From assembly GCF_009906855.1 (NCBI RefSeq), contig NZ_CP047650.1, forward strand, positions 5,332,001 to 5,396,000: a DNA stretch of 64,000 bases, read 5' to 3'. Shown piece by piece: positions 8,275-64,000 of this stretch. Source of the stretch: Xylophilus rhododendri. Lineage in GTDB: Bacteria; Pseudomonadota; Gammaproteobacteria; Burkholderiales; Burkholderiaceae_C. A program made the position numbers and the translations under genes. The notes under the pieces were generated by a model that did no database searches, was not told the origin of the DNA, and was given only the letters and a program-made list of their open reading frames with translations. Positions within the stretch are counted from its first letter, which is position 1, and each line of letters starts with the position of its first letter.

Positions 8275-9612
8275 ATGAACCACCAGTTCCTCGAAATCGA
8301 CACCACGCCCGGCTCGCCGCCCGCCGAGGTGGACGTGGCCATCGTGGGTGGCGGCGCCGCCGGCATCGCGACGGCGCTGGCGCTGTCGCGGCACGGTGTG
8401 TCGGTGGCGGTGTTCGAGAAGGGCCGGGTCGCGGCCGAGCAGAGCAGCCGCAACTGGGGCTGGTGCCGCACCCTGGGCCGCGACGCGCGCGAGCTGCCGC
8501 TGGCCCGGCTCAGCGTGGACCTGTGGCGCAATCTGCAGGCATCGACCGGGGTGGACGTGGGTTTCCGCCAGACCGGCGTGGTCTTCGTGACCGACCAGCC
8601 GCGGGAGATGCAGACCTGGCAGGCCTGGCTGGACTCGACGGCGCACCTGGGCCTGTCGGCCCGCATGCTCTCGGCCAGCGAGGCCAATGCCAGCCACGCC
8701 TGGCAGGGCCGGCCCTGGATCGGCGGCATCCGCGCCGATACCGACGGTTATGCCGAACCGGCCCGGGCCATCCCCTCCCTGGCCCGCTACCTGCTGACCC
8801 AGGGCGTGAAGATCTACCAGGACTGCGCCGTCAACGAACTGCTGCTCGAAGGCCGCACGGTGGCCGGCGTGCGCACCGAAAAAGGCGAGGTGCGGGCCCG
8901 GCAGGTGGTGCTGGCCGGCGGCGCCTGGTCCTCGATCTTCTGCCGCAAGCATGGGATCGTGCTGCCGATCCTGCGGGTGCATTCCTCGGCCTCGGCCCGC
9001 TCGGGCATGGCGATCGGCGGCGCCGCCCCGGTGCGTGCGCCGGACTTCTCGATGCGGCCGCGCGGCGACGGCCAGGTGGTGCTGGCCAAGAGCGGCCGGG
9101 GCACCATGCACATCGTGCCGGACACGCTGCGCTACGGCCTGAAGTTCCGCAGCCTCTACCGGGCGCGCAAGGCCAAGGTCGGACTCCAGCTGGGGCGAGA
9201 GTTCTTCGCGCAGGCCTGGTCAGAATTCCGCTATTTCCACCTGGGCGATGCGCCCTTCGCACGCCAGCGCATCCTGGATCCGGCGCCCGACATGGGCCTG
9301 GTGCAATCCGCCTGGCAAACCGCCAGCCAGGCCCTGGCCCCCGGCGCGGCCGGCACCGGCCCGGCCGCCTCGGCCTGGGGCGGGGTGATCGACAACACGC
9401 CCGACGGCGTGCCCGTGATTTCCGGCGTGCAAGGCACACCGGGCCTTTTCCTGTGCACCGGTTTCAGCGGGCACGGATTCAGCTCATCGATGGGCGCCGG
9501 CCACAGCCTGGCGCAGCAGATGGTGGAGGGGACATCCAGCCTGGACCTGAGGCCGTTCGCCTACGAGCGCCTGGTCGCAAAAGACGGGCTCAAGCCCAGC
9601 ATTCTGTATTGA
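8275..9612 (+). CDS. FAD-dependent amine/amino-acid oxidoreductase (DAO family)
   Basis: 445 residues. The Rossmann dinucleotide motif VDVAIVGGGAAGIATALALSR begins near residue 21, followed by the EQSSRNWGWCR segment seen in gamma-glutamylputrescine-oxidase-like DAO enzymes, and the second FAD contact near the C terminus (GLFLCTGFSGHGFSSSMGAG). Such enzymes oxidise the C-N bond of amines or amino acids, producing a keto acid or aldehyde. The ATG at 8275 was chosen over an upstream TTG. A Bug gene and a GhrA-like reductase follow in the same direction, suggesting an operon that imports and oxidises an amino compound. Substrate unknown. Confidence 0.87.
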   Translation: MNHQFLEIDTTPGSPPAEVDVAIVGGGAAGIATALALSRHGVSVAVFEKGRVAAEQSSRNWGWCRTLGRDARELPLARLSVDLWRNLQASTGVDVGFRQTGVVFVTDQPREMQTWQAWLDSTAHLGLSARMLSASEANASHAWQGRPWIGGIRADTDGYAEPARAIPSLARYLLTQGVKIYQDCAVNELLLEGRTVAGVRTEKGEVRARQVVLAGGAWSSIFCRKHGIVLPILRVHSSASARSGMAIGGAAPVRAPDFSMRPRGDGQVVLAKSGRGTMHIVPDTLRYGLKFRSLYRARKAKVGLQLGREFFAQAWSEFRYFHLGDAPFARQRILDPAPDMGLVQSAWQTASQALAPGAAGTGPAASAWGGVIDNTPDGVPVISGVQGTPGLFLCTGFSGHGFSSSMGAGHSLAQQMVEGTSSLDLRPFAYERLVAKDGLKPSILY

Positions 9613-9638
9613 TCAACCACACCGCAGGAAAGCCCACC

Positions 9639-10598
9639 ATGTTCCCTCGTTCGGCCTTGAAGATTCTCGGTTCATTGCTTGCCGGCCTGGCTTTGGCCGC
9701 CCACGCGGAGGATTATCCGAAGCGCCAGATCGAATTCGTCGTGCCGTATGCGCCCGGCGGTTCCACCGATGCCTTTGTGCGGGTGCTGGCGCCCAAACTC
9801 GCCGAGCAGCTGAAAACCCCGGTGGTCATCGTCAACCGCCCGGGCGCCGCCGCCGTCATCGGCAGCAGTTATGCGCTGGCCACCACCGACGGCTACCGCA
9901 TATTCGCCGCCGGTCCGTCCAATATGGGCACGGCGCTGATCGTGGGGCCCAAGCCGCCTTATAGCGTGGAAGACGTGGCGCCGATCGCCCAGGTGCTGAT
10001 GAACCAGATGGTGCTGGTCAGCAAAAATGGCCGTTTCGCCAGTTTCGATGCCTTTTTGAAAGAGGCCCGGGAAAAGCCGGACACCGTCACCATCGGCAGC
10101 TGGGGTTTGCGTTCGCTGAGCCATTTCTATGTGGAGCAGCTGCAGCAGGCGCTCAACATCAAGGTCCGGCATATTCCCTACGACAGCGGTTCCAAGGAAA
10201 TGGTCGCGGCCATGGGCGGGGAAGTCGATGCCGCGGTGGTGACGGCGGCCGCGGCCCGCACCAATATCAATGGCGGCACCGTGTCCGGCCTGTTCGTGAG
10301 CACCGAGCAGAAGCTGGCCGACCTGCCCGGCGTCGAGTCGATCAAGACCCTGGGTTACCCGGGCGCCGTGGCCTTTTCCTTCGAGGGCATCGCCACCAGC
10401 GCCAAGGTGCCGGCCGAACGCATCGCCATCCTGCGCCAGGCTTTCGACAAAATCCTGAGCGATCCGCAGACGGTCGCGGCGATTCGCGCCACCGGGTCCG
10501 AGCCGGCTTATCTGCCGGGTCCGCAATATGGGCAGCAGATTCGCAGCAACCTGGCCACGCTTCAGCAGATCGCCAGCCGCGTCAAAATGGACGATTGA
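9639..10598 (+). CDS. Bug/TctC-family periplasmic solute-binding protein (4)
   Basis: 319 residues with a Sec signal (MFPRSALKILGSLLAGLALA, ending AHAED). Family motifs are YPKRQIEFVVPYAPGGSTD, VNRPGAAAVIGSSYA and HIPYDSGSKEM; the usual PYKGG is replaced by PYDSGS, a mild divergence. An AGGAA ribosome site lies just before the ATG. The gene follows the FAD oxidoreductase by 26 bases and precedes the reductase by three bases, so the three are very probably co-transcribed. GC content is lower here than in neighbours. Confidence 0.9.
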   Translation: MFPRSALKILGSLLAGLALAAHAEDYPKRQIEFVVPYAPGGSTDAFVRVLAPKLAEQLKTPVVIVNRPGAAAVIGSSYALATTDGYRIFAAGPSNMGTALIVGPKPPYSVEDVAPIAQVLMNQMVLVSKNGRFASFDAFLKEAREKPDTVTIGSWGLRSLSHFYVEQLQQALNIKVRHIPYDSGSKEMVAAMGGEVDAAVVTAAAARTNINGGTVSGLFVSTEQKLADLPGVESIKTLGYPGAVAFSFEGIATSAKVPAERIAILRQAFDKILSDPQTVAAIRATGSEPAYLPGPQYGQQIRSNLATLQQIASRVKMDD

Positions 10599-10601
10599 GG
10601 C

Positions 10602-11528
10602 ATGAGTTTTCTCTACAAGGCCGATCCGGTGCGTGGTGCGCGCTGGGCGGAGCGGTTTGCCGAACAGGCGCCGGATATCGATTTCCGCATCTGGCCCGAT
10701 ATCGGCGATGCCTCCCGTGTCGAATATCTCGCCACCTGGGTGCCGCCACAAGACATGGCGCGGCAGTTCCCGAATCTCAAGGCCGTGTTTTCGACCGGCG
10801 CGGGTGTGGATCAGATCGATTTTTCGCAAGTCCCGGCGCATGTTCCCATCGTGCGTATGCTGGAGCCGGCGATTGCCGACCACATGGTCGAATATGTGGT
10901 GCATGCGGTTCTGACGGTGCACCGCGAATTTGGAGAATACGGTGTCGATCAGCGCGAAGGCCGATGGCAGGTCCGGCCCAACCGATTGGCGCGGGATATC
11001 CGGGTGGGCGTGCTGGGATTGGGGCAATTGGCCCGGGCGGTCTTATCGCGGCTGCGCCTCTTCGATTATTCCTGTGCGGGCTGGAGCCGTTCCGCGCATC
11101 ACATCGAGGGCGTGGCGTGTTTTTCCGGCGAGGCCGGTCTGGAGGCACTGCTCGCGCGCAGCGACATCCTCGTCTGCCTGCTGCCGCTGACACCGCAGAC
11201 CCGCGGCATCCTCGGCGCCGAATTGCTCGGCAGGCTGCCGGCGGGCGCCTCCCTGGTGCAGACGGGCCGCGGCGCGCATCTGGACCAGCAGGCCTTGCTG
11301 GATCTGCTCGATACCGGGCACCTGCGATGGGCCTTCCTGGATGTGACCGAGCCGGAACCGCTGCCGCCGGATCACCCGCTGTGGCGCCATCCCCGGGTGC
11401 GTATCACGCCCCACATCGCCAGCTCGACGAATCCCGACACGGCGGTGACGGCGGTGCTGGAAAACCTGGCCCGGCTGCGGCGAGGCGAGCGGCTGGATGG
11501 CGAAGTCGATCGCGAGCGGGGATATTGA
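10602..11528 (+). CDS. ghrA: glyoxylate/hydroxypyruvate reductase A-like D-2-hydroxyacid dehydrogenase
   Basis: 308 residues, matching the GhrA length. The NAD(P) motif VGVLGLGQLARAVLSRL is followed by SRS at the cofactor-specificity loop (as in NADP-preferring GhrA). The catalytic triad is visible: Arg in QTGRGAHLD, Glu in DVTEPEPLP, His in ITPHIASST. GhrA enzymes reduce glyoxylate and hydroxypyruvate. Coupled three bases behind the Bug gene and downstream of an amine oxidoreductase, it may remove the 2-keto acid the oxidoreductase forms. The gene name is by family resemblance only. Confidence 0.82.
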   Translation: MSFLYKADPVRGARWAERFAEQAPDIDFRIWPDIGDASRVEYLATWVPPQDMARQFPNLKAVFSTGAGVDQIDFSQVPAHVPIVRMLEPAIADHMVEYVVHAVLTVHREFGEYGVDQREGRWQVRPNRLARDIRVGVLGLGQLARAVLSRLRLFDYSCAGWSRSAHHIEGVACFSGEAGLEALLARSDILVCLLPLTPQTRGILGAELLGRLPAGASLVQTGRGAHLDQQALLDLLDTGHLRWAFLDVTEPEPLPPDHPLWRHPRVRITPHIASSTNPDTAVTAVLENLARLRRGERLDGEVDRERGY

Positions 11529-11662
11529 ATTCTGGAAGACTGGTATTCCGTCGGAAGATTATTGTGCGTATTTGTTTTTAATTGTTAATTTCTCGGGTTT
11601 TAATCGTTTGATGCTAGCTACTTCTGCTTATTGCTACAGAATTTCGTGAATGTATTCTTCGG

Positions 11663-11675
11663 CCTCCATTGGAGG
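11663..11675 (+). promoter_or_regulatory. inverted repeat overlapping the ribosome-binding site of the PEP-CTERM gene
   Basis: CCTCC at 11663-11667 faces GGAGG at 11671-11675 across three bases. The GGAGG is the ribosome site for the ATG at 11680, so the hairpin could mask it in RNA. The stem is only five base pairs, so the effect is uncertain. Confidence 0.35.
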
Positions 11676-11679
11676 TTGT

Positions 11680-12065
11680 ATGTGTAAATTTCTTGAGATT
11701 CCCCTGGTTCTGGCCGCGCTTCTTTCTATGCCTTCGGGTGTGGCGCTGGCCGCTGTTTCAGATCGCGCTTCCACCGTGTGTCCCAACGGGCAACTCGATT
11801 CCCATTGCTCATCCATCGATTATCAAGATTTATCGCCCCTGAATCTGAGATTGTCCGAATATCACGCTTCGGTGACTCCTGCTGTTTTCTCGGGTTCCTC
11901 GATTCCGTTGGGGATGGCAATGGCGGGGTGTTGGAAGGCATAGGCCCGACCGGCACGGTGACCACCATCGTGGTGGGCGCGGTTCCGGAGCCGGAAACCG
12001 GCGCCATGCTGCTCGCGGGCCTGGGCGCGATGGCCATGGTGATGCGCCGGCGGCGCCGTCGTTGA
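11680..12065 (+). pseudogene. frameshifted small PEP-CTERM-anchored secreted protein
   Basis: Frame 1 from the ATG at 11680 gives a signal peptide (MCKFLEIPLVLAALLSM, cleavage after ALA) and about 60 mature residues, then stops at 11943. An overlapping frame continues to 12065 and ends with a classic PEP-CTERM tail: VPEPETG, a hydrophobic stretch (AMLLAGLGAMAMVM) and an Arg cluster before the stop. Neither frame alone has both ends; a shift somewhere around 11830-11910 would join them. PEP-CTERM tails are cut by exosortase and anchor exported proteins near the cell surface. The body is very short for the family. Either a decayed gene or a sequencing error is possible; programmed shifting is less likely. 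Local DNA is AT-richer than its surroundings. Confidence 0.6.
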
Positions 12066-12144
12066 GGAATCTCCTTACAGCGCCGGCCCCGGATTGCGGC
12101 GAGCATCGAGGGGTGTGCCGCCCGAGCCTTGCCGGAGATTCGAG

Positions 12145-12360
12145 ATGGAGCTGGACGATTTCAATTCCAGGCTGTTCGCAGCCCGGGCCGACGCCCAGGA
12201 AGCCATGCAGCGTGCCGCCTTCCAGCGCGCCCAGTGCAACCTGACACGGCTGAAGCTGGAACGGGCTCGCCGGGCCCTGCGGGACTCGGTGCCGGGGCTG
12301 GCGTCGGACCTGCCAAGCTTCGAGCCGAGAACCGTGTTTTCTTTACCCAAAACGGGTTGA
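12145..12360 (+). CDS. hypothetical small protein, charged and helical
   Basis: A 71-residue frame starting MELDDFNSRLFAARADAQ with GGAG at 12134-12137 as a possible ribosome site. The middle is rich in Arg, Ala, Leu and Gln (AMQRAAFQRAQCNLTRLKL), suggesting one long amphipathic helix; the tail is Pro/Ser-rich. I do not recognise a family. A longer frame starts at 12094, but it has no better ribosome site. It is the first of two small genes between the PEP-CTERM remnant and the metallopeptidase. Confidence 0.45.
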   Translation: MELDDFNSRLFAARADAQEAMQRAAFQRAQCNLTRLKLERARRALRDSVPGLASDLPSFEPRTVFSLPKTG

Positions 12361-12383
12361 GGTTCACATTGTTGCCAACTGTA

Positions 12384-12404
12384 TGTAGACTTTGCCGGTC
12401 TACA
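12384..12404. promoter_or_regulatory. perfect 7-bp inverted repeat upstream of the small gene at 12431
   Basis: TGTAGAC (12384-12390) and GTCTACA (12398-12404) are exact reverse complements separated by seven bases. A further 12-base palindrome, CCGGCTAGCCGG, lies at 12412-12423, eight bases before the ATG. The 70-base gap between genes is AT-richer and may be a regulated promoter. Confidence 0.4.
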
Positions 12405-12430
12405 CCCCATTCCGGCTAGCCGGGCATCCC

Positions 12431-12646
12431 ATGAGTCTCGTCAGCTCGGTCATCGGTCAGAACTCCCAGGCGGTCTGGAACACGGTGCGCGATACCGTGC
12501 GCGGCGCCGCCAATGGCGATGTGGGCGATATCGCCAAGGTGGCGGTGGGCGTGGCGATCGCCACCGGCGCGGTGCCGGTCAGCAACGGCGTGGCCGCGCT
12601 GGCCGGTGGCGCGGTGGCGGGCCGGCTGCTCGACGTCTTCGTCTGA
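12431..12646 (+). CDS. hypothetical small Gly/Ala/Val-rich protein
   Basis: A 71-residue frame starting MSLVSSVIGQNSQAVWNTV. The second half (VAVGVAIATGAVPVSNGVAAL, then AGGAVAGRLLDVFV) is hydrophobic and small-residue-rich and could form one or two membrane helices, as in holin-like or bacteriocin-like peptides, but I see no specific family signature. It is flanked upstream by two inverted repeats and downstream by a metallopeptidase gene starting 38 bases later. Confidence 0.5.
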   Translation: MSLVSSVIGQNSQAVWNTVRDTVRGAANGDVGDIAKVAVGVAIATGAVPVSNGVAALAGGAVAGRLLDVFV

Positions 12647-12683
12647 GGGGGCTTTCGGCGGCCTCGGCGAAAATCGCCGTCGC

Positions 12684-13208
12684 ATGACCCACGCTTCCGA
12701 CGCTTCCGACGCTTTCCCGCTTCCTTATCTCACCGGCTATGCGCCCGACCTGCTGGCCCAGGTGCGCGGCCTGATCGCCGACGGCCGCCTGAGCGGCATC
12801 CTGGCACAGCGTTATCCCGACACCCATGAGGTGCGCACCGAGCGCGCCCTCTACGACTATGTGAGCGATCTCAAGGCGCGCCACATGAAGAGCGCGCCGC
12901 CGCTGGCCAAAGTTGCCTACGACCCGCGGCTGCAGACGGTGCGCAACGCGCTGGGCACCCACAGCAGCGTCTCGCGGGTGCAGGGCGGCAAGCTGAAGGC
13001 CAAACGCGAGATCCGCATCGCCGCGCTGTTCAAGGAGGCGCCGGCCGACTTCCTGCGCATGATCGTCGTGCACGAGCTGGCCCACCTGAAGGAGCGCGAG
13101 CACGACAAGGCCTTCTACGCCTTGTGCCGCCACATGGCGCCGGACTACCACCAGCTCGAATTCGACCTGCGCCTGTGGCTGACCGCGCGCGAGCTGCCGG
13201 CCTCCTGA
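12684..13208 (+). CDS. YgjP/SprT-like zinc metallopeptidase
   Basis: 174 residues with the zincin motif HELAHLKEREH near residues 130-140: His130 and His134 with Glu131 as catalytic base, and His140 as the likely third metal ligand. The preceding block (LRMIVV) and the KLKAKREIRIAALFKEAP strand resemble the DUF45/YgjP and WLM-type minigluzincins. The product is probably cytoplasmic, with no signal peptide. The N terminus is repetitive (ASDASDA). It is convergent with the TauD-like gene. A role in protein turnover or DNA-protein crosslink repair is family-level inference only. Confidence 0.75.
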   Translation: MTHASDASDAFPLPYLTGYAPDLLAQVRGLIADGRLSGILAQRYPDTHEVRTERALYDYVSDLKARHMKSAPPLAKVAYDPRLQTVRNALGTHSSVSRVQGGKLKAKREIRIAALFKEAPADFLRMIVVHELAHLKEREHDKAFYALCRHMAPDYHQLEFDLRLWLTARELPAS

Positions 13209-13226
13209 TCAACAGCCCGGCGCGGT

Positions 13227-14189
13227 TCAGGCGGTGGTGGCGATCAGCGTGTCGATATGCGCGTCGTTGGTCGCCTCCGGCCGGATGCGGGTGCGGCTGC
13301 GCTGGCCGTCGATGGACACGGCCGAGTCGCCATGCACCGTCACCCGGCGCACCACCCGAGGCTGGTTGCCGTAGTCGTTGATCGCGAAATGCTGGGTGGC
13401 GCGGTTGTCCCAGATCACCACGTCGTTCTGCCGCCAGGACCAGCGCACCGTGTTTTCCAGCCGCACCACGCGGTTCTGCAGCAGCTCGAAGATGCGGGCG
13501 GATTCGTTGCTCGACAGGCCGGCGATCTTCTTGACGAAATGGCCCAGCAGCAGGGCGCGTTCGCCGCTGACGGGGTGTACGTGCACCACCGGATGCTCGG
13601 CCTCGAACAGGGCCGAGACGAAGACCTTGGCGTGGTGCTCCAGGCGCTTGTCTTCCAGCTGCACCCGGTCGGCGCCGTAGTCGTAGTCGTTGCTGTGCAC
13701 TGCCCACAGGCTGTCGGCCAGCGCTTTCAGGTGCGCCGGCAGGCGTTCGTAGGCGGCGGCGGTGTTCGCCCAGACGGTGTCGCCGCCGAAGGCCGGGATG
13801 GTCACGCCGCGCAGGATGGAGATCTTGGGAAAGGCATCGACGAAGGTCACGTCGGTATGCCAGGAGTCTGCCCGGCCGCCGCCCTTGGAGGCATCGAGTT
13901 CGAAGAGCTTGGTGCCGTCGGGCGCCGGCACGGTGGGGTGCGCCACGGTGCGGCCGAAGAGGGCGCCGAAGGCCTGGTGGGCGGCGTCGTCGAGATGGTC
14001 CTGGCCGCGGAAGAACAGCACCTTGTGTTGGACCAGCGCGGTGTTCAGGTCGGCGATGGCTTGGGCGGGCAGGTCGGCGCCGAGACGGTAATCGAGCACC
14101 TCGCCGCCGAGGCTGCCGGCGACGCGGCGGATGCGCAGGTCGGCGATGCTGGTGTCGATCGCGTCGGGGTGGGGGGCGGCGGTGCTCAT
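13227..14189 (-). CDS. TauD/TfdA-family 2-oxoglutarate/Fe(II) dioxygenase
   Basis: 320 residues. The facial triad is His111 and Asp113 in SWHTDVTF plus His267 in NRATQHFAIND; the 2-oxoglutarate-binding Arg is in QPRVVRRVTVHGD. The GGDTVWANTAAAYERLP stretch is characteristic of taurine- and alkylsulfonate-type members. These enzymes hydroxylate the carbon next to a sulfonate, sulfate ester or ether, releasing sulfite, sulfate or an aldehyde. The gene is divergent from a DszC/SfnB-like gene at 14306 and close to an ABC importer, so a role in sulfur scavenging is likely. The actual substrate cannot be read from the sequence. Confidence 0.88.
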   Translation of the reverse strand: MSTAAPHPDAIDTSIADLRIRRVAGSLGGEVLDYRLGADLPAQAIADLNTALVQHKVLFFRGQDHLDDAAHQAFGALFGRTVAHPTVPAPDGTKLFELDASKGGGRADSWHTDVTFVDAFPKISILRGVTIPAFGGDTVWANTAAAYERLPAHLKALADSLWAVHSNDYDYGADRVQLEDKRLEHHAKVFVSALFEAEHPVVHVHPVSGERALLLGHFVKKIAGLSSNESARIFELLQNRVVRLENTVRWSWRQNDVVIWDNRATQHFAINDYGNQPRVVRRVTVHGDSAVSIDGQRSRTRIRPEATNDAHIDTLIATTA

Positions 14190-14252
14190 CTCTGGTTCTC
14201 CTGATCCGAAAGGCGACCAGTGTCGATTTGCCTGCGCAGCCGCGCTGGAACG

Positions 14253-14276
14253 ATTCCGCATAAGGTCCTGCGGGAT
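14253..14276. promoter_or_regulatory. near-palindrome in the TauD-like/DszC-like divergent region
   Basis: ATTCCGCA (14253-14260) and TGCGGGAT (14269-14276) match as reverse complements in 7 of 8 positions with an 8-base spacer. It lies between two divergent genes of the putative sulfur cluster and could bind a shared regulator such as a LysR protein. Confidence 0.3.
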
Positions 14277-14305
14277 CGGTCTAAACGGAGGACCCGCGCG
14301 CGGGG

Positions 14306-15499
14306 ATGCTCGCCGCCATGCTTTTCGAACCCGATCTCTCCACTCCCTATCTGCGCGAGGCCGCCCGGCTGCGCGATGCCTTCGCCGTCGATGCCGTCGC
14401 GCACGACCAAGCCGGCGGCCGGCCGCTGGACCAGTTGCGCCTGCTGAAGGACAGCGGCCTGCTGCGCCTGACCCTGCCGCGCGCCTTCGGCGGCGAGGGC
14501 CAGCCCTGGTCCACCGCCCTGCGGGTGGGCCGCGAATTCGCCAAGGCCGATGGCTCGCTCGGCCATCTCTTCGGCTACCACTGCTCGTCCCAGCATGCGG
14601 CCCATGTGCGGGGCAGCCCACGGCAGGCCGAGGCGCTCTACCGGGCGTCGGCCGAAGGCAACTGGTTCTGGGCCAACAACGCCAACTCGGCCGCGCGCAG
14701 CCTGCTGGGCAAATGGCAGGGGGACCACTGGCTGCTCAACGGCAGCAAACCCTTCACCTCGGGCAGCCATATCGCCGACCGGGTACACATCACCTGGATC
14801 GACGAGGACTCGGGCCGCACCCTGGACGCCACCATCCCGGCCGACCGCGCCGGCTGGCGGGCACTCGATGACTGGGATGCCTTCGGCCAGCGCCAGACCG
14901 GCAGCGGCGCCTGCCGCTACGAAAACGTCCGCGTGGAGGCCGAAGAGGTCTTCGAGCGTACCGGCCCTGCGGATGCGGCCTATCGCACGCTTACCCCTTT
15001 CATCCAGCAGAGCGTGCTGCTCAACGTCTTCCTCGGCACGGCCCAGGGCGCACTGCTGGCGGCGCGCGACTACACCGTGAACGAAAGCCGGCCCTGGGTG
15101 CATTCGGGCGTGGAGCGGCATGTGGACGACCCTTGGGTCAAGCGTGTTTACGGCGACCTCTACACCCGCACCCTGGCCGCGACCGCGCTGGCCGATCAGG
15201 CGCTGGAGGTGCTGGACCGCGTCTGGGAGAAGGGCGATGCCCTGACCGCCGCCGAACGCGGCGAAGCCTCGATCACGCTGGCGGCCGCCAATGCCTTCGC
15301 CGGCAACACGGCGCTGGATGTGACCAGCAAGATCTTCGAAGTGACCGGCGCCCGCTCCACTGCCCGCGGCCTGGGCCTGGACCGCTTCTGGCGCAATGTG
15401 CGCACGCATACCCTGCACAACCCGGAGGAGTACAAGACCCGCAACGTGGGCTACTGGTTCCTGACCGGCGAGCCGCCGGTGCCCAGCGGCATCCAGTGA
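14306..15499 (+). CDS. DszC/SfnB-like acyl-CoA-dehydrogenase-fold flavin monooxygenase
   Basis: 397 residues with the acyl-CoA dehydrogenase fold: an N-terminal helical part (LLKDSGLLRLTLPRAFGGEG), a beta domain (NGSKPFTSGSHIADRV) and a C-terminal helical domain ending LDRFWRNVRTHTLHNPEEYK, a hallmark of the DszC/SfnB subgroup rather than true acyl-CoA dehydrogenases. Such enzymes use reduced flavin and O2 to oxidise organosulfur or N-containing compounds. The catalytic Glu of beta-oxidation enzymes is not evident. An alternative start is the ATG at 14318. It is divergent from the TauD-like gene and convergent with the ABC transporter genes. Confidence 0.82.
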   Translation: MLAAMLFEPDLSTPYLREAARLRDAFAVDAVAHDQAGGRPLDQLRLLKDSGLLRLTLPRAFGGEGQPWSTALRVGREFAKADGSLGHLFGYHCSSQHAAHVRGSPRQAEALYRASAEGNWFWANNANSAARSLLGKWQGDHWLLNGSKPFTSGSHIADRVHITWIDEDSGRTLDATIPADRAGWRALDDWDAFGQRQTGSGACRYENVRVEAEEVFERTGPADAAYRTLTPFIQQSVLLNVFLGTAQGALLAARDYTVNESRPWVHSGVERHVDDPWVKRVYGDLYTRTLAATALADQALEVLDRVWEKGDALTAAERGEASITLAAANAFAGNTALDVTSKIFEVTGARSTARGLGLDRFWRNVRTHTLHNPEEYKTRNVGYWFLTGEPPVPSGIQ

Positions 15500-56094: not shown

Positions 56095-56556
56095 ATGTCT
56101 CCCGAACTCAAGCAACTCCGCCTGGATCAGCTGCAAGCCAGCGTGTCCCCCTACGCCCCGCTGGTCGCCCGCAAACCGCCTGCTCGCGGCTGGCTCAAGC
56201 TGGTGCGGGAATCACTCGGCCTGACCGAACGTCAGCAAGCGCAGCGCCTGGGCATCACCGGCCCGACACTGCACAAGTCCGAGCAGGCCGAATCGGAAGA
56301 CCGCATCTCGCTCGGCCAGTTGCGCAAGCTCGCCGATGGCCTGGACTGCGAACTCGTCTATGCCCTGGTGCCCAGGCGTCCGTTGACCGAGGTGGTCCAC
56401 GAGCGCGCGCGCGCCATCGCGCTGGAAGAAGTCGGCGGCGTGGCGCACACCATGGGCCTGGAGGACCAGCGGCCCACCGATGCGCGCATCGCGCGGCAGG
56501 TGGAGCGCCGGGCGGAGGAGTTGCTGCGTGGCCGGTGGTCGGTGTTGTGGCGCTAG
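56095..56556 (+). CDS. mobile mystery protein A (HTH antitoxin-like)
   Basis: 153 residues. The HTH reads GWLKLVRESLGLTERQQAQR, then LGITGPTLHKSEQAESEDRI, followed by LADGLDCELVYALVPRRPLT, then ERARAIALEEVGGVAHTMGLE, the distinctive pattern of mobile mystery protein A. In other genomes this gene precedes mobile mystery protein B, a Fic-domain protein, as a likely toxin-antitoxin-type pair. Here the partner is reduced to a C-terminal fragment starting inside the end of this gene. Its tail, RRAEELLRGRWSVLWR, is intact. Confidence 0.85.
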   Translation: MSPELKQLRLDQLQASVSPYAPLVARKPPARGWLKLVRESLGLTERQQAQRLGITGPTLHKSEQAESEDRISLGQLRKLADGLDCELVYALVPRRPLTEVVHERARAIALEEVGGVAHTMGLEDQRPTDARIARQVERRAEELLRGRWSVLWR

Positions 56557-56759: not shown

Positions 56760-57083
56760 ATGCCCCGACACAGCAACTCATGGGAAATGGCGATGGCATA
56801 CGCGGTGGAAGCTGTCCAGTGGGCGCCGGATCGAACAGTGAAGTCGGTGCGGTGGCACAGCTTCGAATACGTGGACGGAGAGCTGGAGAAAGGCGATTCG
56901 GTGGTCAGCAGCATCGCCGCCGTGGCGGTCGCGGCATCGCGGGGCCATGACCTGTACCTGTGCTATCACGGCGCCGTGGGCCGCAAGATCGAAGTGGTCG
57001 ATCTTCCCGACGGGCGCAAGACCCTGGTGGATCTGCCCGTCGGCGACCAGGCCCAGGCCCTGGCGGATCTGCCGCAGTTCTGA
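56760..57083 (+). CDS. hypothetical protein, 107 residues
   Basis: Starts MPRHSNSWEMAMAYAVEAVQ with GGAG four bases before the ATG; later ATGs at 56787 and 56793 are alternatives. Contains WHSFEYVDGELEKGDSVVSS, IAAVAVAASRGHDLYLCYHG and VDLPDGRKTLVDLPVGDQAQ. No family recognised. It is on the same strand as the Fic remnant and convergent with the large mutase gene, 27 bases from its stop. Confidence 0.5.
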   Translation: MPRHSNSWEMAMAYAVEAVQWAPDRTVKSVRWHSFEYVDGELEKGDSVVSSIAAVAVAASRGHDLYLCYHGAVGRKIEVVDLPDGRKTLVDLPVGDQAQALADLPQF

Positions 57084-57110: not shown

Positions 57111-60100
57111 TCACCCTGCCGGGGACTGCGGCGGTGCGCTGGCGTCAGGTGTCTTCAGGATCTGATCCAGCACATCCTTCGCGCTGCTCGGTATGCTGGT
57201 TCCAGGACCGTAGATGCCCCGCACGCCAGCCTCGAACAGAAACGCATGGTCTTCCGGCGGAACGATGCCGCCGACGAATACGACGATGTGATGCGCCCCC
57301 AGGTCCTTCAGTGCCTGGATGAGCGCTGGAACCAGCGTGCGATGGCCCGCCGCCAGGCTGCTGATGCCGACGGCATGGACCTCGTGCTCGATGGCCTGCC
57401 GGGCGCATTCGTCGGCGGTCTGGAAGAGCGGTGCCGTCACCACCTCGAAGCCCAGGTCCGAGAACGCGCTGGCCACCACCCTGGCGCCCCGGTCGTGTCC
57501 GTCCTGTCCGAGCTTGGCGATCATCAATCGGGGGAGGCGGCTTCTTGCTGTTTCGAAGGCCAGGACTTCACCCCGGAGCTTCTCCCAGTCCTCGGCCGAC
57601 TCGAAGGCCTCGGCGTAGACACCGCTGACCTGCGGGCTGTCGGCATGGTGGCGACCGTAGACCAGCTCCAGCGCGTCGGACACCTCGCCCACCGTCGCCC
57701 GGGCGCGCATGGCGTCGATGGTCAGCGCCAGGAGGTTGCCCTCTCCGGAACGGGCGGCATCGCTCAGGGCGTCCAGCGTGGCAGCCACCGCAGCGCCGTC
57801 GCGCCGCGAACGGACCTGCCGCAGCGACACGATCTGATCCGCCAGCACCGCCTGGTTGTCGATCGACCGGTGATCGATGCGGGTCTCGCCCGGCGACCGG
57901 TACTTGTTGACCCCCACCACCACATCCCGGCCGGAGTCGATACGAGCCTGCTTGCCCAATGCCGCGGCCTCGATCTGCATCTTGGCCCAGCCGCTTTCCG
58001 CCACCGCCGCCATGCCGCCGCGCCGGTCGATCTCCTCGATGGTCTTCCACGCGGCCTCGGCCATGTCGTGGGTGAGTTTCTCCATCGCGTGGCTGCCGGC
58101 CCAGGGGTCGATGACGCCGGGGATGCCGGTCTCTTCCTGCAGGATCAGCTGGGTGGCCCGTGCGATCCGGGCGCTGGCCTCGGTCGGCAGCGCGATGGCC
58201 TCGTCCAGCGCGTTGGTGTGCAGGCTCTGGGTGCCGCCAAAGGCCGCGGCCATGGCCTCGATGGTGGTGCGCACCACGTTGTTGTGCGGATCCTGCGCGG
58301 TCAGCGAGCAGCCCGAGGTCTGGCAGTGCATGCGCAGCATCAGGCTGCGTTCGTTGCTCGCGCCCAAGCCCCGCATGATCCGGCACCAGAGCAGGCGGGC
58401 CGCGCGCAGCTTGGCGATCTCCAGGTAGAAATCCATGCCCACGCCGAAGAAGAAGGACAGCCGGCCCGCGAAGCCATCCACGTCCAGGCCGCGCGCCATG
58501 GCGGTCTGCACGTACTGGCGCCCGTTGGCCAGGGTGAAGGCCAGCTCCAGCGCGGGGCCGGCCCCGGCCTCCTGCAGGTGGTAGCCGCAGACGCTGATCG
58601 AGTTGAAGCTCGGCATGTGCGCCGCCGCGTGGGCCATGACGTCGCCCACGATGCGCATCGACGGCCCGGGCGGGTAGATGTAGGTGTTGCGGACCATGAA
58701 CTCCTTGAGGATGTCGTTCTGGATGGTCCCCCTCAGCCGCGCCTGCGGCACGCCCTGTTCCTCCGCCGCCACCACGTAGGCGGCCAGCACCGGCAGCACG
58801 GCGCCGTTCATGGTCATGGAGACACTGGTGCCGCCGAGCGCAATGCCGTCGAACAGGGCCTTCATGTCCTCCACGCTGTCGATGGCCACGCCCGCCTTGC
58901 CGACCTCGCCGGCCACCCGCGCATGGTCGCTGTCGTAGCCGCGCTGGGTCGCCAGGTCGAAGGCCACACTCACGCCCTGGGCGCCGCTGTGCAGGGCTTC
59001 GCGGTAGAAGGCGTTGGACTCACGGGCGGTCGAGAAACCGGCGTACTGGCGGATGGTCCAGGGCCGGGTGGTGTACATGGTGGGCTGGGGTCCACGCACG
59101 AAGGGAGCAAAGCCGGGCAGGGTGTCTTTGGCGGGCAGCGCGGCGGTGTCGGCCGCGGTGTAGAGCGGCTGGACCACGATGCCTTCGGGTGTGATGCGGT
59201 TCAGGGCTGACAGATCGCCGCCCGGTGCCGCGGCAGTGGCGGCGCGGCGCCAGGCATCGAGGTCGGCAGGCGCGGCCTCTGCGACACCACTGGCCGCGCG
59301 AGCCGACACGGTGGTGCGCACCCGCGCGAGCGTGCGGCCGTGGCGGGGGCAGCGGATCTCCACTTCCAGGCAGGTCCCGGCCTCGGCCGCGCTGCTGCCG
59401 CGCCAGACGATTTCCACCTCGTGGCCCACGTCGAGGTTGCCCAGGTACAGGCATTCACGTTCGACCACGCGGTCCTGCGCGCCCAGCAGTTGCCACGAGA
59501 AAAGCGCCCGATCGGCCCAGGCCGTGAAGGTCGCGAAATAGACGAGGCCGGCGCCGTTGAAATCCCCACGCGGGCAGGACATCAGCCGCAGCGACTGCGC
59601 TCCCGCCGCAGGCGCGGCCTGCGCGGCGACGGCAGTGCGCCACTCGCGTGCCCGGTCGGCCAGCGCCCGGGCCGCGGCGGGCTCGGCATGTGTGCCCGCA
59701 TCGCGCATCGGCACCCGGCGCACCGAACGGTTGGAGCCGTCCTCGCCGCGTCCCACGAACACCGACAGCATTTCCAGCTGCCCGATCTCGCCCTCGCCGG
59801 TGCTCAGCCGGTGCCGGCTCCAGGCCTGCGAACGGCCCAGCGGACTCAGCTGACTCCTCAGGCCGAGCCGCTGGCCTTCCCGCACCTCGCCCAGCCGTGC
59901 CGACCGCAGCCGCACGATGCCGAAGGCCGCGTACACCCGCTGCCCGGCCGGGTCGGTCCACAACTCGGCCGGCCGGCCCAGGCTGGCCGCCAGGCCGCGC
60001 CAGTGCAGCTCGCCGCAGGTCTTCTGCAGCCAGGTTTCGGAGAGCCCGCAGCCGTCGAGCTGCGGCATGCCCAGGGTGACGGAACTACGCGCCGTCCAGG

Positions 60101-60179
60101 GGCGAGGCCGGGGCGGGGCGGCCGGCTCATCCGCCAGCGCGGGCTCCACCCAGGACGAGGTCAGCGTTCGGTCATCCAT
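57111..60179 (-). CDS. LnmK/Pnap_2097-like domain fused to methylmalonyl-CoA mutase
   Basis: 1022 residues, about 300 more than a normal single-chain mutase. Residues ~30-295 resemble LnmK/Pnap_2097-family double-hotdog acyltransferase/decarboxylases: [40 protein letters not shown] and [20 protein letters not shown]. From ~305 the mutase barrel has [48 protein letters not shown] and [20 protein letters not shown]; the substrate-specific Tyr, Arg and His of methylmalonyl-CoA (not isobutyryl-CoA) mutases are present. The last ~130 residues bind B12 (DGHDRGARV). It could make methylmalonyl-CoA from succinyl-CoA and decarboxylate or transfer it in one protein. It starts 14 bases after the Nit1C flavoprotein gene. 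The N-terminal family call is less certain than the mutase. Confidence 0.87.
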
Positions 60180-60193
60180 GGCGGCGGTGGTCC

Positions 60194-61483
60194 TCAGGCC
60201 GGCGAGGCTTCGGCTTCCCGCACCGAGGCCAGCTCCCGCTGCAGGGCCATCCGGTGCTGCGCGATCTGGCTGGCGATGAAGGCCGCGTCGTCGGCCACGC
60301 CGGAGAAGCGTCCCGAACCCCAGGTGTGCAGCCAGGGCAGGCCGATGAAGAACAGCCCCGGCACCTGGGTCACGCCGCGCCGGTGCACCGGATGGCCCTG
60401 GCCGTTGAAGACCGGTGCGTCCAGCCAGCGGAAATCCGGCGCGAAGCCTATGCACCAGATCACCGACGTGATGCCGGAATCGGCCAGCGACAGCGTCTCC
60501 CGCTCGCCCTCGGGCGACCACACCGGCTGGTAGACGGAGGCCTCGCCGGCCTGGATGCCCTGCTCGGCGATGTACTTGTCGATGGCCGCGTTGATGCCGT
60601 TGTAGGTGCGGTCGGCGCTGTCCAGCGCGGCGGCCAGCGAGGGCCGGAAACGCAGGGTGTCGCCCTCCAGCGCTTCGAGCTGGCCGTAGAGCTGCATGCC
60701 TTCGAGGGCGAAGCGGCGCAGGTCGATGTCGCGTCCGCCGTCGCGGCCGGTGACGTAGTGGTTGGTGTTGTCGCGCACGCCTTCGCGCAGCGGATGCTGG
60801 TCCACCGGCATGCGGTAGTAGCCCATGTCGGCCAGCCAGTCGACCACGTCCCGGCCGCGGTAGAAGCGGGCGCAGCGCGGCGCGTCGCCCACGGCCAGCA
60901 CCACCTCGCGGCCGGCCAGGTGCAGGTCCTCGGCGATCTGCGAGCCGCTCTGGCCCGAGCCCACCACCAGCACCTTGCCCGGCGGCAGCTGCGCGGCATT
61001 GCGGTAGTCGGCCGAGTGGATCTGCGCCACCGACGCGGGCAGGCGCTCGGCCAGGCGCGGGACGATGGGCAGGTGGTAGCCGCCGGAGGCCACCACCACC
61101 TGCTCGGCCAGGCATTCGCCCTCGCTGCTGCGGATGCGGAACAGCCCGCCTTCCTGGCGGATGCCCTGCACCGCCACGCCTTCGTGCAGGGGCGGCGCGA
61201 CCCGGGCGCGGAAGCCGTCGAGGTAGTCGGCGATCTGCTCCTTCTTCATGAAGCCGTGCGGATCGTCGCCGGCATAGGGATGGCCGGGCAGGGCGCATTG
61301 CCAGTTGGGGGTGACCAGGCAGAAGTTGTCCCAGCGCTGGCTGCGCCAGCTGTGCATGGCGCTGTGTTTCTCGAAGACCGCATGGTCCAGGCCCTGCTGG
61401 CGCAGGAAATGGCTGACCGACAGGCCGGCCTGGCCGCCGCCGACGATGACGACGCTGTATTGAGGGATGCTGGATGGGCTCAT
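60194..61483 (-). CDS. Nit1C flavin-dependent oxidoreductase (MSMEG_0569 type)
   Basis: 429 residues. The FAD motif [20 protein letters not shown], the FxGxxxHxxxW-like region [18 protein letters not shown], and a second nucleotide motif [20 protein letters not shown] define a class-B-type flavin oxygenase/oxidoreductase. The [22 protein letters not shown] end matches the flavoprotein found in nitrilase-1 (Nit1C) clusters of mycobacteria, cyanobacteria and Burkholderiales. Nit1C has been tied to nitrogen-starvation response and growth on cyanide. The next gene downstream is the mutase fusion, 14 bases away. Confidence 0.85.
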
Positions 61484-61512
61484 GGGAAAACTCCTTGGAT
61501 GGAATGCCGGGC

Positions 61513-61809
61513 TCAGGCGGTGCCGGTGTCGAAGGCGACGACATGCACCTGCGCGCCGGGCGTTTCGCTGAAATCCCGTGCGCGGGTTTCGATCTCGACC
61601 AGCTGGTCGGCCGCCATCGAGCAGGCGAAGCCGAACTTGGCGCGTACCCGGTCGCTCGCGATGGCGGTGGCCTCGCGCACGCGGCGCAGGAAGTCGTCCA
61701 GGGGATAGTCCTGGCCCGGCTGGAAGAAGTCCTGGATCACCAGCGAGGGCGAATAGCAGGTGCTCTGCGTGGCGTCGGGCCAGCGGACGGTGTAGTGCAT
61801 GGCGGGCAT
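61513..61809 (-). CDS. MSMEG_0570-family nitrogen-starvation protein
   Basis: 98 residues: [60 protein letters not shown]. This short family occurs in Nit1C clusters and is called a nitrogen starvation response protein; the biochemical role is not known. It is 25 bases after the glycosyltransferase gene and 29 bases before the flavoprotein gene. Confidence 0.87.
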
Positions 61810-61834: not shown

Positions 61835-63029
61835 TCAGTGTTCGGCCAGCGGGCGCGCGGCCCGCACTAGCGCCGACCGGTACCAGCTCTCGTGCCGCTC
61901 GGCGCTGGCGTCCCAGCCATGCGCCAGGCAGACGGCCGGCGTGGTCTTGCCGCGCGGCAGCAGCGCGGCGGCCTGCAGGCCGGCGGCGATGGAGGCGATG
62001 TCTTCCGGATCGCACCAGGCGACCAGCGGCTCGCCCGCCAGGTGTTCGGTGAAGGGCGCCCGGCGCGACACCAGCGCCGGTGTGCCGCAGGCCAGGGCCT
62101 CCAGCGCCACCAGGCCGAAACCCTCCACCAGCGAAGGCATGGCCAGCACACGGGCGCGGCGCATCAGGGCGGGCAGCAGGGCATCGGGCAGGGGACCGGT
62201 GCGCCAGACCGGCTGGTCGGGGCCTTCGGTCCAGCCCAGGCCCTGCAGGGTGTCGGCCCAGCCGCGCTGCGATGCGCTGTGGTCCAGCAGGCTGGCGCCG
62301 CCGGCCATCACCAATTGGGCTGCGGCCCAGGCGCGATCGGTGGCGCGCAGCCGGGCGAAGGCCTGCAGCAGGCGCAGGCTGTTCTTGCGATGCTCCACGC
62401 CGCCGACGGCCAGGCAGACGAAGCCGGGGCGCAGGCCCAAAGCGCGCAGCGCCGCCGCATCGCCCGGCACGCCGGCTGTGTGGAAACGCCTCAGATCGAC
62501 ACCGTTGTAGAGGCGCTGCGGCGTGCGGCCATGCGCCTCGCGCAGCTGGCCGCACCAGGTGTCGCTGACGCAGCCGATGGCGTCCGCGGACTGCCAGGCG
62601 CGCGCCTGCCAGATATCGAGCTGCGGCTCGCTGAACTGGTCCAGGTGGTGGATGGTGCGCACCCAGGGCGGCAGCGCATGGCCCTCGTCGGCCAGGTCGG
62701 CCAGGGCATTGCCGCCCAGGCTGTCGTGCACATGCAGCAGATCGAAATCCGCGCTGGCCAGCACCTCTGGCAGGCCGAGGCGGATGGCGGCGATGCGCTG
62801 GCGCACCTGCTCCACCAGCGGGCCCTGGATGGCGCCGGTCGGCAGCAGGGCCACCCGCACCGGTGCGCCCGGGCCGCCGGGCTGGCGGAACAGGGACTGG
62901 CCCGGGTCGGCCGGCGCCACTACCGTCACTGCATGGCCGCGCCGCGCCAGCGCGCCGGCCAGTTCCAGCGTGTGCACCACGCCGCCGCGCGGCAACACCG
63001 AATGCGTCAGCAGGCCGATGGTCAGGCGG

Positions 63030-63037
<8 letters not shown>
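61835..63037 (-). CDS. MSMEG_0565-family glycosyltransferase (GT4)
   Basis: 400 residues. N-terminal GT-B fold (MRDRLTIGLLTHSVLPRGGV, VVHTLELAGALARRGHAVTV, FDLLHVHDSLGGNALADL), and in the C-terminal half the donor site VLAMPSLVEGFGLVALEALA with CGTPALVSRRAPF, the GT4 EX7E pattern. It matches the glycosyltransferase that accompanies Nit1C genes. Start at 63037 was chosen over an upstream frame because it begins directly with the first beta strand; it overlaps the AIR-synthase-like gene by eight bases. Confidence 0.88.

Positions 63038-64000
<963 letters not shown>

Follow-up and report, generated by a model that had tools for sequence, protein, structure and literature searches.

A single open frame joining an LnmK/Pnap_2097-like domain to methylmalonyl-CoA mutase at the end of a Nit1C cluster in Xylophilus rhododendri

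In the Scp pathway of Escherichia coli, two separate enzymes (Sbm and YgfG) convert succinyl-CoA to methylmalonyl-CoA and then to a propionyl product; methylmalonyl-CoA mutase produces the 2R isomer of methylmalonyl-CoA, and the crotonase-type decarboxylase ScpB/YgfG decarboxylates methylmalonyl-CoA to free propionyl-CoA. Another enzyme of this intermediate is the methylmalonyl-CoA:ACP acyltransferase/decarboxylase LnmK of leinamycin biosynthesis, which reportedly specifies (2R)-methylmalonyl-CoA, to go by the title of a 2020 study by Lohman and Shen. LnmK acts together with the carrier protein LnmL (PMC9570651). Here we describe a gene of Xylophilus rhododendri that joins an LnmK-like domain to a mutase in one open frame, within a stretch of 64,000 nucleotides (NZ_CP047650.1, positions 5,332,001 to 5,396,000; herein the window). 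We read it, with a probability of roughly 0.6, as a natural single-chain fusion of a mutase and an LnmK-type acyltransferase/decarboxylase that would take succinyl-CoA through (2R)-methylmalonyl-CoA to a propionyl unit.

An extended Nit1C nitrilase cluster, which runs beyond the window end, has this gene as its last member; the initial annotation of this DNA, made from the letters alone, had not recognized the membership. Nit1C clusters are widespread, and few of their genes have an assigned role. Published clusters share the core found here (PMC1199592, PMC11049912), and in Pseudomonas the cluster is needed for growth on cyanide (PMC11049912). The last two genes of a Red Sea operon described in 2016 encode a conserved hypothetical protein and, after it, a putative methylmalonyl-CoA mutase, such that the unfused gene neighbourhood is already in print, without a function (PMC4751646).

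The fused frame and its two halves

The frame runs from ATG to TGA over 1022 codons without an internal stop and is real in the assembly, which bears out the initial claim that both enzymes share one polypeptide frame. It is also open upstream of this ATG (57111-61544, 1477 amino acids); the ATG at 60179 is the likely start codon and lies 14 bases past the stop of the preceding gene. The linker between the halves is short and rich in Ala and Gly, third-position G+C remains high across the domain join, and the fusion is probably expressed as one chain.

The N-terminal half passes the curated cut-offs of two NCBIfam profiles, TIGR04099 (Pnap_2097; 225.9 bits against 125, residues 36-288) and TIGR04098 (LnmK; 222.7 bits against 100, residues 34-289), and Pfam-A, given the full protein, reports only the mutase and B12 domains. 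Solved LnmK chains are matched at E-values of 4e-13 with a 10-row profile and 1.6e-13 with a 56-row profile, and the next structural match, to the hotdog thioesterase 4k00, is weak (0.0004-0.0015). In an alignment of 56 LnmK-like domains that includes the window, Tyr83 aligns with LnmK Tyr62, which we take to be an active-site residue, and Asn208 with the loop Asn of LnmK, both columns being invariant. A catalytic role has been ascribed to an Asn in the loop that precedes the helix in the second hotdog half (PMC8666670). The nearest standalone relatives, among the matches listed, share 61-71% identity with this half. The initial annotation had assigned the region to LnmK by pattern recognition, an assignment that the profile and structure matches uphold; both of the motifs that it quoted are present, with 8 of 12 and 8 of 13 residues invariant or nearly so across the 56 rows, far beyond chance.

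The C-terminal half is a complete B12-binding methylmalonyl-CoA mutase, as initially annotated. It matches PRK09426 over residues 303-1010 (1135.4 bits, cut-off 876; NCBIfam) and, in its B12 half, TIGR00640 over residues 882-1009 (171.1 bits, cut-off 57.45), and both the PF01642 barrel and the B12-binding domain are above their Pfam cut-offs; the IcmF profile scores only 353 bits against a cut-off of 1500. Tyr379, Arg497, His534, Lys889, Asp893, and His895 align with Tyr89, Arg207, His244, Lys604, Asp608, and His610 of the Propionibacterium mutase (1req), whose numbers and active-site roles we assume here.

The nearest species, Xylophilus sp. GOD-11R (genome G299, locus L015), belongs to the same genus and carries an unfused LnmK-like/mutase pair with an ATGA overlap and a GGGAG before the mutase ATG. 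When the two loci are aligned, the window differs at the junction by 1 + 9 extra bases and retains neither the ATG nor the stop nor the GGGAG. Across the LnmK-like half, the two differ at 25.6% of first, 21.1% of second, and 43.5% of third codon positions, and this third-position excess argues that the half evolves like a protein under selection.

Unfused pairs, trees and mutases among relatives

Of 179 relatives counted, 80 loci were read, and the other 99 could hold fusions. A mutase gene lies downstream of the LnmK-like gene, on the same strand, in 51 of the 80 loci, and in 55 of 91 when the window and 10 further loci cut around matches are included (six of the 10 are the same as loci among the 80 and are counted twice). 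No second fusion was found among the 90 other loci read, the same six again counted twice; the fusion is hence not conserved, a point that the initial annotation had left to a survey, and on present data it is private to one species. Its view of the domain order as unusual stands insofar as no second fusion was found, and the commonness of the unfused pair had escaped it. Indeed, the conserved unfused pair is a more general finding than the fusion: start and stop overlap by four bases in at least 34 of 54 unfused pairs, by a rule that considers the first three possible starts only. Some pairs are damaged, such as those with a truncated mutase (L047), broken frames (L040, L042), or a gap of about 1.2 kb (L049).

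The protein set likewise yielded no second case. The LnmK-like region found nothing at E 0.001 among proteins of 562-1790 amino acids (8000 candidates sharing most words were scored), none of the best 120 of 8000 matches to the whole protein covers more than 72% of the query, and the best 120 of 128 matches to the LnmK-like region are all of 350 amino acids or fewer, partly owing to the length limits of the search; gene callers may also have split other fusions in this set, as with the window gene. Long frames in G060 (799) and G358 (702) were rejected as fusions, ending at the LnmK-like gene's own stop, and the idea of the fusion as a common architecture was rejected as well, no second case having been found.

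Three loci of relatives deserve mention in their own right. In L047 (Pseudomonas sp. ZH-FAD, 10732-12476), only about 200 amino acids of the cluster mutase are left, and the gene after it, which runs in the opposite direction, scores 599.3 bits, marginally below the cut-off of 600, against the Qat anti-phage ATPase QatA; a defence island was perhaps inserted at this mutase. L085 (Cupriavidus campinensis LMG 19282) departs most clearly from the pairing: it keeps the LnmK-like gene, lacks a cluster mutase, and its sole mutase elsewhere is IcmF-like. L089 (Stappia sp. MMSF_3263, 8995-14937) has an LnmK-like gene without Nit1C genes, beside a nonribosomal peptide synthetase (adenylation, carrier, and condensation domains), a class II aldolase, and a phosphopantetheinyl transferase, and represents a different pathway with the same enzyme family.

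Phylogenetic trees bear on how the pairing came about. In a tree of 48 mutases, those of the window and L015 fall outside a clade of 18 other cluster mutases (100/100), as a second tree agrees, and beside canonical betaproteobacterial mutases, including that of G300 from the same genus (72% identity). These trees contain 18 or 19 of the 53 cluster mutases besides the window, omitting L118 and others with a stop or fewer than 550 amino acids in the aligned stretch, and the 48-mutase tree leaves the window and L015 mutases in an unresolved fork, such that the shared recruitment of these two rests on gene order. For the LnmK-like domains, a tree of 56 places the window with L015 (100/99) and nests both among relatives without an adjacent mutase (100/99, 95/91), and the strongly supported branches force at least three label changes, gains or losses of an adjacent mutase. 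These topologies indicate that the pairing of LnmK-like gene and mutase arose more than once. The simplest reading would have a canonical mutase join the LnmK-like gene in this genus, in an event separate from that of the other clade, and then fuse to it in one species; an older cluster mutase may alternatively have been replaced in this genus.

Whole genomes were searched with PF01642, counting as canonical any mutase of at least 750 bits, a line set after the scores had been seen, and reading "IcmF-like" from score and frame length. None of 43 genomes that carry a cluster mutase (damaged ones in G720, G723, and perhaps G721 included) has a canonical one elsewhere, as against 26 of 31 with an LnmK-like gene and no cluster mutase. 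The other five of the 31 comprise G706 and G716, whose matches are cut by contig ends, G697, with a mutase of 681.6 bits, and G713 and G703, to which we return below. Cluster-mutase loci L046, L052, L055, L057, L062, L065, L066, L075, L078, and L103, and also L045, stand outside these counts. Three cluster-mutase genomes (G732, G734, G738) have a second mutase of 641-649 bits and many have an IcmF-like one; in the window genome, the fusion is the sole match to the mutase family. Across 200 genomes sampled from the order, 14 have a mutase of at least 750 bits and 64 have any family match. Such mutual exclusion of cluster and canonical mutases is expected if the LnmK-like enzyme uses methylmalonyl-CoA from whatever source.

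The helper proteins MeaB and epimerase were searched in 30 genomes only, the first set, hand-picked to span groups. MeaB (TIGR00750) has no match above cut-off in the window genome nor in any of the nine genomes with a cluster mutase, and is above cut-off in 14 of 16 genomes with an LnmK-like gene and no cluster mutase (G701 falls about 2 bits short). Within the genus of the window, G300 and G301 combine a mutase with MeaB and lack the LnmK-like gene, and no member of this trio passes its cut-off in G020, G148, or G232. The mutases of G000, G299, G358, G488, G691, G692, G694, G695, and G698 seem to work without a MeaB above cut-off; judged by score and frame, the IcmF-like matches in G691 and G695 include a G domain of their own. 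Fisher values for the genome comparisons (2.6e-15, 2.7e-5, 6.3e-12) take no account of relatedness among the genomes and are indicative only. The epimerase profile TIGR03081 is above cut-off in five of the 30 genomes, all alphaproteobacterial by record name, and gives 24.5 bits in the window genome and 38-47 bits only in several betaproteobacteria with a canonical mutase. With so few genomes passing, a missing epimerase was set aside as weak evidence of reaction direction. If the LnmK-like half acts on the 2R isomer, which is the isomer that the mutase makes, no epimerase would be needed.

The surrounding Nit1C cluster

The NitB-to-NitH core is present in order, every member above its cut-off, with a glycosyltransferase inserted (Table 1); a glycosyltransferase has been noted in the Nit1C clusters of Burkholderia and Rubrivivax (PMC1199592). 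In L002, which is the window's locus extended past the window end, the cluster continues with a GNAT protein, a radical SAM protein, a nitrilase, and an MSMEG_0572 protein, all above their cut-offs. A divergent regulator of the sigma-54 type, NitA, is described for the Nit1C cluster of Pseudomonas (PMC11049912). No such NitA was found here, the divergent gene just outside the window (L002 13540-14904, + strand) being MocR-like, with GntR and aminotransferase domains. On the other side, a gene for Mobile mystery protein A (56095-56556, + strand; TIGR02612 129.1 bits, cut-off 122.6) is convergent with the fused gene and lies about 0.55 kb past its stop, followed by a small open frame (56760-57083) without an NCBIfam match.

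Table 1. Parts of the fused gene and the cluster genes beside it, in window coordinates.
Feature	Position	Strand	Basis and remarks
Fused gene, LnmK/Pnap_2097-like domain + methylmalonyl-CoA mutase	57111..60179	-	1022 amino acids; frame reading and profiles
LnmK/Pnap_2097-like domain	59313..60080	-	residues 34-289, including Tyr83 and Asn208; profiles and alignments
Ala/Gly-rich linker	59259..59312	-	residues ~290-307, limits approximate; site of the ATGA overlap in L015
GTG codon 291, start in public protein set	59307..59309	-	732-amino-acid mutase
Mutase barrel PF01642	57654..59192	-	residues 330-842
B12-binding domain	57153..57536	-	residues 882-1009, including DGHDRG (His895); profile
MSMEG_0569-type flavin-dependent oxidoreductase (taken as NitH)	60194..61483	-	TIGR04046 667.9 bits, cut-off 498.35
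MSMEG_0570-family protein, 98 amino acids (taken as NitG/ORF6)	61513..61809	-	TIGR04042 127.6 bits, cut-off 79.85
MSMEG_0565-family glycosyltransferase	61835..63037	-	TIGR04047 376.3 bits, cut-off 259.85
sll0787-family AIR-synthase-like protein, cut by window end	63030..64000	-	TIGR04049 439 bits, cut-off 321.3

Proposed reaction, alternatives and known systems

We propose that the C-terminal half would carry out the adenosylcobalamin-dependent rearrangement of succinyl-CoA to (2R)-methylmalonyl-CoA and that the N-terminal, LnmK-type half would decarboxylate this product, release CO2, and hand the propionyl group to an acceptor. Candidate acceptors might be a carrier protein encoded elsewhere or serving housekeeping, CoA, a product of the cluster, or an amine on which the cluster GNAT protein acts. 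We infer the direction of the mutase, the decarboxylation, the acceptor, and any channelling. Comparative support for the proposed coupled reaction is good, because a mutase lies downstream in 51 of the 80 loci, starts and stops overlap, the pairing has more than one probable origin, and cluster and canonical mutases exclude one another. A more elaborate proposal, which we offer tentatively, is a MeaB-independent single chain that makes propionyl units from succinyl-CoA, passes the 2R intermediate between its halves without an epimerase, and propionylates a carrier or a Nit1C product.

Several observations weigh against a fused enzyme with this activity. No acyl carrier protein was found among the cluster genes of the window (NCBIfam for all, Pfam for three), and the openly licensed literature yielded no published activity or function for Pnap_2097 proteins. 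Within the DNA covered, 29 of the 80 loci have no mutase downstream, among them L041 and L094 with less than 1.4 kb of contig past the LnmK-like gene. The rule that some mutase accompanies the LnmK-like gene has exceptions in G703 (a metagenome-assembled genome), which has none, and in G713, which has an IcmF-like one only, and the only mutase of G723 is the truncated one in its cluster. Finally, the public protein set has the gene as a mutase of 732 amino acids from GTG codon 291 (P0002).

The missing carrier gene would suit an LnmK-like domain that only hydrolyses methylmalonyl-CoA, that stops at decarboxylation to free propionyl-CoA and so acts in place of the ScpB/YgfG of E. coli, or that transfers the methylmalonyl group whole, as would the weak match to thioesterase 4k00, and the GNAT protein and glycosyltransferase of the cluster could handle other acceptors. 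We consider such a use unlikely, given that the half scores above the cut-offs of both LnmK-type profiles, that the residues matching the LnmK Tyr and Asn do not vary across the 56 rows, and that the related gene of L089, outside Nit1C, adjoins a synthetase bearing a carrier domain and a phosphopantetheinyl transferase. A role for the LnmK-like half as a mutase helper that replaces MeaB, rather than as an enzyme, would fit the distribution of MeaB (above cut-off in none of the nine genomes that have a cluster mutase and in 14 of the 16 that have the LnmK-like gene and lack one); it is very improbable, as the LnmK-like gene is also present alongside MeaB, its presumed catalytic residues are conserved, and cluster mutases may simply do without MeaB. 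We know of no hotdog protein with a mutase-helper role.

The single chain might also not be what the cell chiefly makes, if a base error in the assembly joins two frames or if starts at GTG 291 give mainly a separate mutase. The annotated GTG start, the lack of another fused example among the 80 loci or the protein-set matches listed, and the dependence of the window frame on one assembly of the species speak for this, and the initial annotation had itself named a missed start separating the two parts as a possible flaw: the frame proved unbroken, and the start in the public set falls between the parts. We nevertheless regard it as quite unlikely. The loss of the ATG, stop, and GGGAG of L015, with 1 + 9 bases differing, exceeds one base error, third-position G+C is high through the join, and the LnmK-like half keeps its invariant residues and its third-position excess of changes. 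Sequence inspection found no stretch resembling a ribosome site ahead of GTG 291, and among the 120 matches listed from the public protein set none is a standalone LnmK-like half from this contig. This half lacks a stop of its own, and translation from the ATG must therefore run on into the mutase and yield the fusion, unless a base is wrong; a short mutase from GTG 291 may be made alongside it.

Together, the fusion and the unfused pair give two accessory Nit1C genes a testable reaction, namely methylmalonyl-CoA supply and propionyl transfer. If the more elaborate, MeaB-independent proposal holds, the fusion would be a natural Rosetta stone, and the Nit1C pathway of many proteobacteria would contain a propionylation step. 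The genomes with cluster mutases and no MeaB above cut-off bear further on how B12 mutases stay active.

With LnmK (PDB 4hzn, 4hzo, 4hzp, 6x7l), the N-terminal half shares its family, by profile and by match to the solved chains, and the conserved Tyr62 and loop Asn; LnmK, however, is a separate protein acting with its carrier LnmL, whereas the domain described here shares an open frame with a mutase and lies in a Nit1C cluster, and no carrier gene was found next to it. The Pnap_2097 proteins (TIGR04099) likewise close extended Nit1C clusters, in an orthologous position, but are separate proteins in every other locus read. As in methylmalonyl-CoA mutase (PRK09426; PDB 2xij, 1req), the full barrel, the B12 domain, and the active-site residues are kept, although the fusion has an additional N-terminal enzyme domain and its genome lacks a MeaB above cut-off. 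IcmF, an isobutyryl-CoA mutase fused to its own G-protein, likewise unites a B12 mutase and an accessory domain in one chain, with another partner and in another order. The Scp pathway of E. coli has the reaction sequence proposed here, but in separate proteins and with a crotonase-type rather than an LnmK-type decarboxylase. The malonyl-ACP (acyl carrier protein) decarboxylase MadA (GNAT + hotdog) is also a hotdog decarboxylase fused to another domain and has a catalytic loop Asn (PMC8666670), but differs in hotdog family, in partner, and in its malonyl substrate.

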